Positions 46,526 to 55,853 of a stretch of 64,000 nucleotides of DNA are shown one piece after another (within the stretch, counting starts at the first letter, position 1; every line of letters begins with the position of its first letter). Source of the stretch: Comamonadaceae bacterium (GTDB lineage Bacteria; Pseudomonadota; Gammaproteobacteria; Burkholderiales; Burkholderiaceae_C); assembly GCA_003599455.1 (NCBI GenBank), contig QZKF01000041.1, positions 1 through 64,000 of the forward strand, written 5' to 3'. The notes beneath the pieces are model-generated. The model ran no database searches. It was not told the origin of the DNA and saw only the letters and a program-made list of their open reading frames with translations. A program made the position numbers and the translations under genes.

Positions 46526-47002
46526 ATGCAAAAAATCCTTCACATCAACCCGGACAAGTGCACGGGCTGCCTGCAGTGCGAAATGGCGTGCTCGTTCGAG
46601 AACTACGGCACCTACGCGACCTCGAAGTCGCGCATCAAGGTGTTCGACTTCCACCACACCGGCAAGAAGGTGCCATACACCTGCACGCAGTGCGACGAGG
46701 CCTGGTGCCTGCACGCCTGCCCGGTGGAGGCGATCACGGTGGACAAGGTGACCGGCGCGAAAGTGGTGAACGAGACCACCTGCGTGGGGTGCAAGGTCTG
46801 CACCATCGCCTGCCCCTTCGGCACCATCAACTACGTGCAGGAAACCGGCAAGGTCCAGAAGTGCGACCTCTGCGGTGGCGAGCCGGCCTGCGCCGAGGCC
46901 TGCCCCACGGCCGCCATCACCTTCATCGATGCCAACTGGACCGGCATGGACAAGATGAAGCAATGGGCCGACAAGCTGGGCAACCAGCCCGCCGCCGCCT
47001 GA
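46526..47002 (+). CDS. aorA: AorA-like polyferredoxin subunit of tungsten aldehyde oxidoreductase
   Basis: 158 residues with 16 cysteines in four CxxCxxCxxxC-type groups: [11 protein letters not shown] (Cys12-22), [24 protein letters not shown] and [14 protein letters not shown], enough for four [4Fe-4S] clusters. The build equals AorA of Aromatoleum, the electron-carrying subunit that polymerises with AorB into filaments in that organism. It has a strong ribosome site (CACGGAGACAACG). First gene of the operon, 28 bases before aorB. Confidence 0.9.
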
Positions 47003-47030: not shown

Positions 47031-48878
47031 ATGTCATGGGCTGGAAAAATCCTCCGCGTCAACCTGACCGCGGGCACCGTCAAGTCCGAACCGCTGAACA
47101 CCGAGTGGGCGCGTGCCTACATCGGCTCGCGCGGGCTGGGCAGCAAATACCTGGTGAGTGAAGTCGACCCCAAGGTCGACCCGCTCTCGCCCGAGAACAA
47201 GATCATCTGGGCCACCGGCCCGCTGACCGGCACCATGGCCTCCACCGGGGGCCGCTACACCGTCATCACCAAGGGCCCGCTGACCGGCGCCATCGCCTGC
47301 TCGAACTCGGGCGGCTACTGGGGCGCCGAGCTCAAGATGGCCGGCTGGGACATGATCATCTTCGAGGGCAAGAGCCCCAAGCCGGTCTACCTCTACATCA
47401 ACGACGACGAGGCCGAGCTGCGCGACGCCGGCCACCTGTGGGGCCAGAGCGTCTGGAAGACCGAGGAGGTCCTCAAGTCCAGCCTGCAGGACCCGCTGGT
47501 GCGCGTGTCGAGCATCGGCAAGGCCGGTGAAAACGGCGTGCTGTACGCGGCCGTGGTCAACGACCTGCACCGCGCGGCCGGCCGCTCGGGCGTGGGCGCG
47601 GTGATGGGCAGCAAGAACCTCAAGGCCATTGCCGTGCGCGGCACCAAGGGCGTGGGCAACATCCGCGACCCCAAGGCCTTCATGAAGACCACCTTCGAGA
47701 AGAAGAAGATCCTGGCCGAGAACGCCGTGACGGGCCAGGGCCTGCCGGCCTACGGCACGCAGGTGCTCATGAACGTGATCAACGAGATCGGTGCGCTGCC
47801 CACCCGCAACCACCGCGACGTGCAGTTCGAGGGCGCGAAGGACATCTCGGCCGAGGCCATGGTCACGCCGCGCGAGAGCGACGGCAAGAAGCACCTGGTG
47901 ACCAACCAGGCCTGCTTCGGCTGCACCATCGCCTGCGGTCGCATCAGCAAGATGGACGAGGGCCACTTCACCGTGGCCAACAAGCCGCAGTACTGGGGCG
48001 CCAACGGCGGCCTGGAATACGAGGCGGCCTGGGCACTCGGTGCGGCCAACGGCGTGAACGACCTTGAAGCGCTGCAATACGCCAACCTGCTGTGCAACGA
48101 AGAGGGCTTCGACCCGATCAGCTTCGGCGCCACCGTGGGCGCGGTGATGGAGCTCTACGAGATGGGCGTGCTCACCAAGGAGCAGCTCGGCATCGACGCG
48201 AAGTTCGGCTCGGCGCAGGCGCTGGCCCACTTCGCCGAGATCACCGCCAAAGGCGAAGGCTTCGGCAAGGAAATCGGCATGGGCTCGGCCCGCCTGACGA
48301 AGAAGTACGGCTACCCGGACCTGTCCATGAGCGTCAAGGGCCAGGAATTCCCGGCCTACGACGGCCGCGCGATCCAGGGCATCGGCCTGGCCTATGCCAC
48401 CAGCAACCGCGGCGCCTGCCACCTGCGTGGCTACACCATCGCCTCCGAGGTGCTGGGCATTCCGGTCAAGACCGATCCGGTCGAGAGCGAAGGCAAGCCG
48501 GAGCTGGTGAAGGCCTTCCAGGACGCCACCGCCGCGTTCGACTCTTCGGGCCTGTGCGTGTTCACCACCTTCGCCTGGGGCGTGGCCGATCTGGCACCGC
48601 AGCTGCAGGCCGCGTGCAACGAAGAGTTCACCACCGAAGAGCTGGAGAAGATCGGTGAGCGCATCTGGAACATGGAGCGCGAGTTCAACAACGCCGCCGG
48701 CTTCACGTCCAAGGACGATTCGCTGCCCAAGCGCCTGCTGACCGAAGCCGCCAAGACCGGTGCCTCCAAGGGCATGGTCAGCAAGCTGCCCGAGATGCTG
48801 CCCAAGTACTACGCCGTGCGCGGCTGGGACCCGGAAGGCCGCCCGACGGCCGCGACCAAGGCCCGCCTGAGCCTCTGA
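47031..48878 (+). CDS. aorB: Tungsten-dependent aldehyde:ferredoxin oxidoreductase, catalytic subunit AorB
   Basis: 615 residues, the usual AOR length. The N-terminal domain begins [20 protein letters not shown] and has the cofactor-binding run [16 protein letters not shown]. The [4Fe-4S] ligands are Cys295, Cys298 and Cys302 (CFGCTIAC) plus Cys509 ([10 protein letters not shown]). The family oxidises aldehydes to acids using a tungsto-bispterin; relatives with AorA and AorC subunits reduce NAD+ or run in reverse to reduce acids. TupABC in the same window can supply the metal. Confidence 0.95.
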
Positions 48879-48912: not shown

Positions 48913-48948
48913 AGGGGGCAGTCACCACGCTGCCCCCTTTCTTTTTTT
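48913..48948 (+). terminator. Strong intrinsic terminator/attenuator between aorB and aorC
   Basis: AGGGGGCAG (48913-48921) pairs perfectly with CTGCCCCCT (48930-48938) across an 8-base loop and is followed by TTCTTTTTTT (48939-48948). Directly behind it is the aorC ribosome site (AGGAG at 48951-48955) and its ATG at 48962. It is inside the operon, so it should lower aorC relative to aorAB unless read through. Confidence 0.85.
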
Positions 48949-48961
48949 CGAGGAGACCGAC

Positions 48962-50308
48962 ATGCACCACCTCATCCTGGGCGCCGGCCCCGCCGGCGTC
49001 ATCGCGGCCGAGACCATCCGCAAGCACGCGCCCGCCGACACCATCACCCTGGTGGGCGACGAGGCCGAGCCGCCGTACTCGCGCATGGCCATTCCCTACC
49101 TGCTGATCGGCAACATCAAGGAAACAGGCACCTACCTGCGCAAGAGCCTCACGCACTACAGCGACCTGCGCATCGACCAGGTGGGCGGGCGCGCCACCGC
49201 GGTGGACGTGAAGGCCCGCACGGTCACGCTGGACAACGGCAGCGCGCTGAAATTCGACCGCCTGCTGATCGCCACCGGCTCGCACCCGGTGCGCCCGCCG
49301 ATTCCCGGCATGGACTCGCCCGGTGTGCACCCGTGCTGGACGCTCGAGGACGCGCGAGCCATCGCGGCACTCGCCAAGCCGGGTGCGCGCGTGCTGCAGA
49401 TGGGCGCGGGCTTCATCGGCTGCATCATCATGGAAGCCTTGGCCGCGCGCGGCGTGGAGCTCTCGGTGGTGGAGATGGGCGACCGCATGGTTCCGCGCAT
49501 GATGGGGCCGACCGCGGGCACCATGATCCGCGAATGGTGCGAGAAGAAGGGCGTGAAGGTCTACACCGGCACCAAGGTCGAGGCGATTGAAGTGGCGGGC
49601 GACCACGGCGGTGGCGTGATCGGCAAGATCGCCAGCGCCATCGGCCTGGGCTCGTCCGAGCCGGCCGGCAAAGGCCTGCGCGTGAAACTCTCCGGCGGCC
49701 AGACGGTGGAGGCCGATCTCGTGATCAGCGCCACCGGCGTGCGCCCGGCCATCGGCTTCCTCAAGGACTCGGGCATCACCTGCCTGCTGGGCGTGCTGAC
49801 CGACGAATACCTGCAGACCAACGTGTCCGGCATCTACGCCGCGGGCGACTGCGCCGAGGCCTTCGACAAGGTCAGTGGCAAGACCATCGTGAGCGCGATC
49901 CAGCCCAACGCCGCCGAGCAGGCGCGCGTGGCCGCGCTCAACATGGTGGGCCAGAAGGCCGACCTCAAGGGCGTGACGCAGATCAACGTGCTCGACACCC
50001 TGGGCCTGGTCTCCACCAGCTTTGGCAACTGGGAGGGCGTGCCCGGTGGCCAGCACGCCGAGCTGACCGACAAGGCCGGCGGACGCCACCTGAGCCTGCA
50101 GTTCCAGGGCGACGTCATGGTCGGCTGCAACTCGGTCGGCTGGACCGAGCACGTGGGCGTGATGCGCGGCCTTGTCGAAGGCCAGGTGCACCTGGGCGAA
50201 TGGAAGGACCGGCTGCTGCACGACCCGACCAGACTCATGGACGCCTACCTCGCGAGCGCGCAGGGGCAGGGTCAATGGGCGGGTGCGGCCGACGCGCGCC
50301 GTCGTTGA
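48962..50308 (+). CDS. aorC: AorC-like FAD/NAD(P)-dependent oxidoreductase subunit
   Basis: 448 residues. It has two Rossmann motifs, LILGAGPAGVIAAE at the N-terminus for FAD and LQMGAGFIGCIIMEAL near 145-160 for NAD(P)H, and the FAD tail GIYAAGDCAEAF. It matches the flavin subunit that links AorAB to NAD+ in Aromatoleum. It lies 83 bases after aorB beyond the terminator. Confidence 0.9.
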   Translation: MHHLILGAGPAGVIAAETIRKHAPADTITLVGDEAEPPYSRMAIPYLLIGNIKETGTYLRKSLTHYSDLRIDQVGGRATAVDVKARTVTLDNGSALKFDRLLIATGSHPVRPPIPGMDSPGVHPCWTLEDARAIAALAKPGARVLQMGAGFIGCIIMEALAARGVELSVVEMGDRMVPRMMGPTAGTMIREWCEKKGVKVYTGTKVEAIEVAGDHGGGVIGKIASAIGLGSSEPAGKGLRVKLSGGQTVEADLVISATGVRPAIGFLKDSGITCLLGVLTDEYLQTNVSGIYAAGDCAEAFDKVSGKTIVSAIQPNAAEQARVAALNMVGQKADLKGVTQINVLDTLGLVSTSFGNWEGVPGGQHAELTDKAGGRHLSLQFQGDVMVGCNSVGWTEHVGVMRGLVEGQVHLGEWKDRLLHDPTRLMDAYLASAQGQGQWAGAADARRR

Positions 50309-50313
50309 TCACA

Positions 50314-50577
50314 ATGCCTCTCATGAACATCACCTTCAAGCTGTTTGCCACCCTCACCGACTACCTGCCCGCCGAGGCCCGCCGCAGCAACCAGGTGTCG
50401 CTCGACATCGACCCGGACACGCCCATCAGCCAGATCATCGAGCCCTTCGGCCTGCCGCCCAAGCTGGTGCACCTGGTGCTGGTCAACGGCAAGTACATCC
50501 AGCCGGAGGACCGCCTGTGCGCCACCCTGGTCGAGGGCGACGTGCTGGCCATCTGGCCGCCGATCGCCGGAGGCTGA
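50314..50577 (+). CDS. aorD: MoaD/ThiS-like sulfur carrier AorD
   Basis: 87 residues from the ATG at 50314 (the ATG at 50323 is an equal alternative; neither has a clear ribosome site). The beta-grasp protein starts MNITFKLFATLTDYLP and ends in the Gly-Gly tail (PPIAGG) that is thiocarboxylated in MoaD. A dedicated copy in the AOR operon suggests it feeds sulfur to the tungsten pterin cofactor. It lies 5 bases after aorC. Confidence 0.88.
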   Translation: MPLMNITFKLFATLTDYLPAEARRSNQVSLDIDPDTPISQIIEPFGLPPKLVHLVLVNGKYIQPEDRLCATLVEGDVLAIWPPIAGG

Positions 50578-50582
50578 GCGCA

Positions 50583-50882
50583 GTGCAGTCCAGTTACAGC
50601 GAGAGTTTCGAGCGCGACATGGGTTGCACCGAGGCCGAGTGGCTGGGCTGGTTGCCCGCGGCCATCGGTGCCTGCAGCTGGCGGCGCGAGGGCAGCCATG
50701 CGGTGGTCGAGGTGCCGCCCGGGCGGCTCGCGCTTCGCTGGGCCGCCCAGCCGCCGCGGGTGATCGCGCTCATGCGCATGCCGGTGCTGCGCGTGCACTT
50801 CGCCTTCAGTGGCCTGGATGCGGCGCAGCGCTACGCCTTCATGCGGCGCTTCGACCTCTACATGCAGCGCGGCGGCGGCTGA
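50583..50882 (+). CDS. Small conserved-looking protein at the end of the aor operon
   Basis: 99 residues from a GTG at 50583 (MQSSYSESFERDMGCTEAEW), five bases after aorD; no strong ribosome site, so coupling to aorD is likely. It has alternating hydrophobic and charged segments (GWLPAAIGACSWRREG, FAFSGLDAAQRYAFMRRFDL) but no motif I can name and no membrane helix. Its position after aorD suggests a tungsten-cofactor or AOR assembly role; that is inference from linkage. Confidence 0.68.
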   Translation: MQSSYSESFERDMGCTEAEWLGWLPAAIGACSWRREGSHAVVEVPPGRLALRWAAQPPRVIALMRMPVLRVHFAFSGLDAAQRYAFMRRFDLYMQRGGG

Positions 50883-55783: not shown

Positions 55784-55819
55784 AAAAAACAAGCCCTGCA
55801 CCCGGGGCGGGTGCAGGGC
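55784..55819 (-). terminator. Intrinsic terminator of the dctPQM operon
   Basis: GCCCTGCACCC (55793-55803) and GGGTGCAGGGC (55809-55819) pair perfectly across five bases. Reading leftwards the stem is followed by TTGTTTTTTG (the T run at 55789-55784). It lies 35 bases beyond the dctM stop and directly before the rdgC ribosome site, so it separates the two transcripts. Confidence 0.88.
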
Positions 55820-55853
55820 CTGCATATCTTAGAGGATGGCCTTCTTCCGTCTG

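Follow-up and report, generated by a model that had tools for sequence, protein, structure and literature searches.

A putative leaky terminator between aorB and aorC in the tungsten aldehyde oxidoreductase operon of a Comamonadaceae bacterium

Introduction

At rplL-rpoB and rpsU-dnaG of E. coli, partial termination inside the operon lowers expression of the distal gene, as is proposed here for aor, although at those junctions the genes are different and the spacers larger. The hairpin of the puf operon acts through mRNA decay with RNase E cleavage and is not known to act through termination at a U-tract. Internal terminators have also been described in the ABC-importer operons of Ruminiclostridium cellulolyticum, where their measured efficiencies range from 20.7 to 96.1% (PMC9045158).

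The complex of interest here is the aldehyde oxidoreductase (AOR) of Aromatoleum aromaticum. AorA forms the core of the filament, for which its C-terminal helix is needed, and AorC both caps and nucleates the filament (PMC10413684). Two to four protomers were seen and longer filaments are presumed; Aor(AB)2C predominated among the species prepared, free AorAB was also seen, and the grade of oligomerisation in vivo is given there as not known (PMC10413684). An earlier note on the DNA studied here had spoken of many AorAB units per AorC. That a single AorC caps repeated AorAB is known for A. aromaticum, but the wording exceeds the two to four protomers seen (PMC10413684). In the native enzyme, P was below the expectation for an alpha2beta2gamma2 composition, which the authors accounted for by partial FAD occupancy (PMC6365974). 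Because P ranged from 5.2 to 9.9 in recombinant batches (PMC9295118), the low value is weak evidence of stoichiometry. As to published RNA or protein ratios for the aor genes, a term search in the main text of PMC9765128, a systems-biology study of A. aromaticum, gave one mention of the pathway and a reference; a search of the RNA-seq literature on Hydrogenophaga gave nothing relevant-looking among the matches listed.

The operon analysed here resembles that of A. aromaticum in its orthologous subunits and in the order A, B, C, followed by aorD (PMC6365974). It differs at the junction of aorB and aorC, where A. aromaticum has a gap of 114 nt without a T-run.

Materials and Methods

The window is the whole stretch of 64,000 nt analysed, which belongs to a draft genome of 4.29 Mb in 106 contigs. 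Related junctions were taken from 333 loci with an aorB relative, namely 80 named records (the best 80 of 437 matches), 114 loci from four genome searches and 139 fetched stretches (79 + 60). Not included in this set are matches that were truncated or partial and some entries of the class-level and f21 lists; f21 is the family holding A. aromaticum. Usable were 327 of the 333 loci. We dropped L050 and L067, in which aorB runs off the contig, L295, which has no aorC in 1497 nt, and L215-L217, which are 58% paralogues without a recognised aorC. L215, L216 and L217, which come from three genomes, hold a second aorB-like gene (about 58-60% identity), with no recognisable aorC in the next 1.5 kb. 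Removal of identical junctions left 304, with gaps of less than 40 nt in 72, of 40-264 nt in 228 and longer in 4. The family set consists of the GTDB family of the window (f1) and the 80 named matches, which were included as a block.

A site was called terminator-like when a hairpin of -8 kcal/mol or better had at least 5 T in the next 8 bases. A crude gene caller, run on 117 sources that comprise the window together with loci from its family and order, supplied the control gaps; matched controls for f21 and the other orders are limited to the shuffles. Carafa-type scores were computed over 122 elements (median 4.8, 56% above zero). The AorB tree was built with FastTree, and tree pairs were taken on supported branches with a threshold of -5.0 for the Shine-Dalgarno (SD) duplex, which was our choice.

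Results

Judged by its sequence, the cluster in the window would encode a three-subunit tungsten AOR of the AorABC type, whose AorA carries the C-terminal filament helix (Table 1). In PDB 8c0z, the AOR of A. aromaticum, the chains matched by AorB, AorC and AorA are A, E and C, respectively. In addition, the aorB product has the Pfam domains AFOR_N and AFOR_C, the ATG of aorC aligns with residue 1 of 8c0z_E, and the C-terminal WTG... tail of AorA is present in the sequence. Among the matches listed, the closest named relatives of AorB are those of Hydrogenophaga. The intergenic gaps inside the operon are 28, 83, 14 and 5 nt; that of 83 nt, between aorB and aorC, is the sole one long enough for an element of the kind described below, and the 14 nt between aorC and aorD are too short for such a hairpin. 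The last open reading frame has no match in Pfam or NCBIfam and perhaps occupies the place of aorE. Divergent from aorA, on the minus strand at 42.4-46.1 kb, lie the three genes of a molybdenum hydroxylase cluster, which judged by eye encode large, medium and small subunits of the CO-dehydrogenase-like type.

Table 1. Features of the aor operon in the window
Feature	Positions	Strand	Description
aorA	46526..47002	+	158 aa polyferredoxin subunit; 8c0z_C match, E 1.4e-77
aorB	47031..48878	+	615 aa tungsten aldehyde oxidoreductase catalytic subunit; 8c0z_A match over 1-615
GC-rich hairpin AGGGGGCAG TCACCACG CTGCCCCCT	48913..48938	+	arms AGGGGGCAG/CTGCCCCCT, read from the sequence
T-run TTCTTTTTTT	48939..48948	+	tail of the hairpin, putative U-tract; 9 T in 10 nt
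aorC Shine-Dalgarno GAGGAG	48950..48955	+	after a single C; anti-SD duplex -8.9 kcal/mol
aorC	48962..50308	+	448 aa FAD/NAD subunit; 8c0z_E match, E 1.8e-155
aorD-like MoaD/ThiS-family gene	50323..50577	+	84 aa; Pfam Ub-Mut7C + ThiS
Small ORF, last of operon	50583..50882	+	99 aa, GTG start

The earlier note had placed a 9-base GC-rich stem with a T tail between aorB and aorC, before the ribosome site of aorC, and this description is exact. The hairpin, with 9 Watson-Crick pairs and one possible U-G, begins 34 nt past the stop codon of aorB. It has a free energy of -19.6 kcal/mol when taken alone. For the 83-nt gap together with the ATG the value is -31.1 kcal/mol (z -2.4), which was equalled by 3 of 200 shuffles. 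The predicted structure is that of an intrinsic (Rho-independent) terminator, a GC-rich hairpin followed by a U-tract. Its Carafa-type score (28.4) is higher than 90% of the 122 scored. Terminator-like sites as a whole class are not enriched around the operon (8 in 40-56 kb versus 6.9, sd 2.6, in shuffles); the aor site is the second strongest of the 8 by pairs. A search of the draft genome for the exact arms with a loop of 3-12 located the stem at a single position, and on this ground we ruled out a dispersed repeat or REP-like element. No Rfam family reaches threshold in 46.0-51.5 kb. Three sub-threshold matches there, one of which (Chloroflexi-1, 20.3 bits versus 80) overlaps the stem, are regarded as chance, and a known RNA family was rejected. 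Elsewhere in the window, on the minus strand at 55789-55823, a stronger terminator-like hairpin (-32 kcal/mol) stands after a TRAP-transporter gene and likewise borders on the start of the gene that follows, which appears to be rdgC (both by eye); comparable gaps occur in L005, L019 and L021.

The earlier note had proposed comparing the aorB-aorC gap in related operons, where the lack of a stem would have told against it. The comparison showed instead a stem that is common in them, gathers at this junction and is selected for its structure. A terminator-like site was found in 121 of the 228 gaps of 40-264 nt. The family set contributed 89 of 125 gaps (5.2 in shuffles), other families of the order 9 of 14 (1.0), f21 20 of 72 (3.0) and other orders of the class 3 of 17 (0). 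With a cutoff of -12 kcal/mol, applied to the first 145 gaps, 94 were terminator-like versus 0.8 in shuffles. When all gaps came from the same caller, 62 of 81 aorB-aorC gaps were terminator-like versus 27 of 171 other co-directional gaps, and a site at most 30 nt from the downstream start was present in 53 of 81 versus 7 of 171. Because the rows are related and not independent, the corresponding Fisher values (p 5e-21 for any position, 5e-26 within 30 nt) are only indicative. Four of the seven near-start control sites (in the window, L005, L019 and L021) appear by eye to be homologous copies of a single region upstream of another gene. No terminator-like site was detected in the 12 aorA-aorB gaps or in the 33 aorC-aorD gaps of at least 40 nt, the remainder of the 173 and 213 gaps, respectively, being too short and unscored. 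When the gaps were clustered by sequence, 69 of 150 clusters were mostly terminator-like, as were 41 of the 71 clusters confined to the family set. Thus, the element at the aorB-aorC junction is not due to chance.

Structure is shared more widely than the T-run. The median fold z of the gaps was -2.45, -2.54, -2.90 and -3.42 for the four groups, whereas the 171 control gaps had a median of -0.74. In f21, hairpins of -12 kcal/mol or better near the aorC start were present in 46 of 72 gaps, versus 9.3 in shuffles and 29 of the 171 control gaps, which come from the window's family and order. A T-run (at least 5 T of 8) followed 58 of 93 near hairpins in the family set versus 6 of 46 in f21.

A homologous stem, GCGGY...RCCGC, was found in 25 of 62 aorB-aorC terminators of the family set versus 2 of 41 other terminators. 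Picking rows by the 5' arm alone gave 62 of 124 gaps, 60 of them distinct (the family filter omits one of the 125 rows). In these 60 rows, 94% of positions were paired in an 8-pair consensus, compared with a mean of 84 and a maximum of 87 in shuffles. Double changes filled 65 cells versus 0 to 8 once the register had been slid by 1, 2 or 3 positions, the register slid by +3 having 79% paired and zero double changes; the consensus structure was derived from the same alignment and is to that extent favoured over the slid registers. These compensatory changes in the GCGGY...RCCGC stem indicate that its structure is under selection. The stem of the window, GGGGGCAG, differs from it in sequence. 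In protein trees of 41 close relatives, two unrelated stem types of Hydrogenophaga alternate within supported clades, as seen for L007 and L016 with L008 and L009 in the AorB tree (support 100/95) and for L020 with L010 in the AorC tree (99/95). It follows that the sequence of the stem has been replaced while hairpin and T-run were kept.

The same trees show a divergent aorC clade inside Hydrogenophaga, comprising L006-L011, L013, L014, L016, L018 and L020. In these loci AorB is 94-97% identical to that of the window, and the first 173 residues of AorC are 69-73% identical. In L006, AorB groups with the clade of the window (91/90, a moderate support) and AorC with the divergent clade (100/99 with L018), a mosaic that we read as a sign of possible exchange between aorB and aorC.

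The anatomy of the junction bears on how aorC is transcribed. From the end of the stem to the aorC start the median distance was 22 nt (quartiles 20-24, 10-90% 18-37; 101 junctions), and to an SD-like motif, present in 91 of 98 near terminators, it was 9 nt (quartiles 7.5-11). In the window, 23 nt separate the stem from the ATG, and most of them are T-run and SD. No -10-like hexamer was seen by eye in this interval, and a sigma-70 scan of 40-56 kb, covering this one promoter type, gave 0 sites versus 0.8 expected, other promoter types being judged by eye. On this anatomy a promoter of aorC behind the stem was considered very unlikely, and any promoter farther upstream would have to cross the hairpin, so that aorC should depend on readthrough and should be transcribed through the hairpin.

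Were AorC required to stay below AorAB, an operon that lacks the hairpin would be expected to reduce AorC by different means. The hairpin was absent, and the gap under 40 nt, in 72 of the 304 operons. In general, the SD of aorC was weaker than that of aorB in 158 of 173 operons, equal in 2 and stronger in 13; the window is an exception to this trend (-8.9 for aorC versus -6.6 for aorB). Within the family set, the median SD of aorC was -3.9 in 35 short-gap operons versus -6.4 in 88 with a terminator (p 1e-8). The short-gap value was also weaker than that of other close-spaced genes in these loci (median -6.1 for 53 genes; p 0.009); an earlier version of this control, with the aor genes included, had a median of -7.4. 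The state of the gap changes at least 44 times over the AorB tree. Among 33 independent tree pairs, the short gap went with the weaker SD in about 20 and with the stronger one in 3, and 10 showed no difference (median p 0.0009). Short-gap operons thus tend to have an unusually weak aorC SD, as if they lowered AorC by another route. A finer trade-off of terminator strength against SD strength, in which a stronger terminator would be matched by a stronger SD, was not robust: the family set showed a weak inverse link (rho -0.21, p 0.04), and this was gone without the Hydrogenophaga-like rows (rho 0.07). We also considered the hairpin as a marker of filament-forming enzymes. Among operons with an aorA sequence, however, the C-terminal motif of AorA was present in 34 of 46 with a short gap, in 70 of 72 with a terminator and in 46 of 55 others, and its retention in short-gap operons leaves this idea unsupported.

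The A. aromaticum operon is represented by L309, whose AorB is identical to that of 8c0z over the 204 residues compared. Its 114-nt gap shows extensive pairing that is not significantly better than that of shuffles (z -1.48) and has no T-run; the SD of aorC (-5.9) is weaker than that of aorB (-8.7). Since both the T-run and a significant fold are missing in L309, partial termination cannot be the universal way of setting AorC against AorAB. The proposal of the earlier note, that partial termination makes their ratio unequal, is therefore limited in its reach; it keeps the support of a stem that is widespread, placed at the junction, selected, and so situated that readthrough is implied.

Discussion

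We consider it probable that the element is a leaky internal terminator, which would also cap the aorAB mRNA and would lower aorC relative to aorAB. RNA polymerase would transcribe aorA and aorB of the aorABCD operon before meeting it. The hairpin lies beyond the ribosome that terminates on aorB and could form while the U-tract is being made, and a fraction of the polymerases would then release at the U-tract. Their product would be an aorAB mRNA with its 3' end protected by the hairpin, and the polymerases that read through would make the full aorABCD mRNA, the sole source of aorC. As a result, the mRNA of aorC (and aorD) would be less abundant than that of aorAB, which fits repeated AorAB protomers capped by one AorC. 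What is observed is the element itself, its position, its concentration between aorB and aorC, the conservation and turnover of its structure, and how little space is left behind it for a promoter. What we infer beyond this is termination in vivo, its efficiency and the ratio of transcripts, and selection on the stoichiometry of the filament. The terminator of the window looks strong, so that readthrough might be too low for a ratio of 1:2 to 1:4. Also weighing against this reading are the junction of A. aromaticum, the rarity of T-runs in f21, the AorA motif kept by most short-gap operons, the strong aorC SD of the window, the fragile link between terminator and SD strength, and the terminators found in control gaps.

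The main role of the hairpin could instead be to stabilise 3' ends produced by RNase cleavage, in a segmental decay like that described for puf and for selective RNA processing and stabilisation (SRPS), the whole operon being transcribed, the aorC-aorD part decaying faster and the stem protecting aorAB. This account, for which puf, cip-cel and differential decay in E. coli provide precedents (PMC6238624, PMC4423207, PMC5927463), draws on the gap folds of all four groups, in which the trait most widely shared is structure and not the T-run, and on the near hairpins of f21, mostly without a T-run. With hairpins common and T-runs rare in f21, decay control is a possible reading there. In the family set, however, most near hairpins do have a T-run, which decay control would not need, and it stands directly 3' of the stem. 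We therefore hold segmental decay to be unlikely as the main role, though it deserves some weight.

A terminator next to a ribosome site resembles the expression platforms of attenuators. Readthrough might accordingly vary with growth state, electron acceptor or tungsten, so that the AorC:AorAB ratio is adjusted and not fixed, and a trans-acting factor would be compatible with this. But, judged by eye, the sequence of the gap ahead of the stem shows no conservation from clade to clade, and the Rfam search over the operon likewise counts against regulated attenuation, which seems improbable to us. We give less credit still to a translational role, in which the hairpin would shield the ribosome site of aorC against other structures or against ribosomes coming off aorB: the fairly fixed distance between stem and SD is as this role would have it, but the enrichment of T-runs would go unexplained. 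Finally, terminators also occur in other co-directional gaps, as an ordinary boundary between transcription units would lead one to expect, with aorAB ending at the hairpin and aorC having a promoter of its own. The space between stem and ATG, the promoter scan and the need of any farther promoter to cross the hairpin make such a boundary scarcely credible.

More tentatively, and with somewhat more doubt than belief, we suggest that the length of this nanowire may be written in RNA, in that readthrough of the terminator would fix the ratio of protomers to caps and lineages without the hairpin would repeatedly use a weak ribosome site for aorC, AorC staying below AorAB by either route. If the terminator limits the supply of caps, the length of AOR filaments can be tested and tuned. 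Across hundreds of natural variants, the stoichiometry of the complex seems to be kept by interchangeable devices, namely a terminator, a hairpin without a T-run or a weak ribosome site.

In the literature consulted we found no description of such an element in aor operons. The mechanism already has precedents, and its instance in aor operons appears to be new. By analogy, the element would act as internal terminators do in the operons of clostridial ABC importers, with which it shares an intergenic stem-loop and U-rich tail. The preceding gene is needed in excess there and presumably here, and readthrough, on which the downstream subunit genes depend, sets the ratio of the flanking transcripts there and, by anatomy, would do so here (PMC9045158). 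The two cases differ in that a solute-binding protein is set against a translocator in Clostridia, and a protomer against a filament cap in Betaproteobacteria. Moreover, the aor stem lies directly beside the next ribosome site, and it has a recurrent alternative in the short gap with a weak SD. As in the SRPS of the cip-cel cellulosome operon, intergenic stem-loops would tune the stoichiometry of a complex and turn over in evolution; in cip-cel, however, a U-run is found in only 5 of the 33 stem-loops and the sites of processing have been mapped, whereas the T-run is common at aor junctions in the family of the window (PMC4423207). The puf operon of Rhodobacter likewise has a hairpin between genes for more and less abundant parts of one photosynthetic apparatus (PMC6238624, PMC5927463), and aor hairpins that have no T-run perhaps act like those of puf or SRPS.
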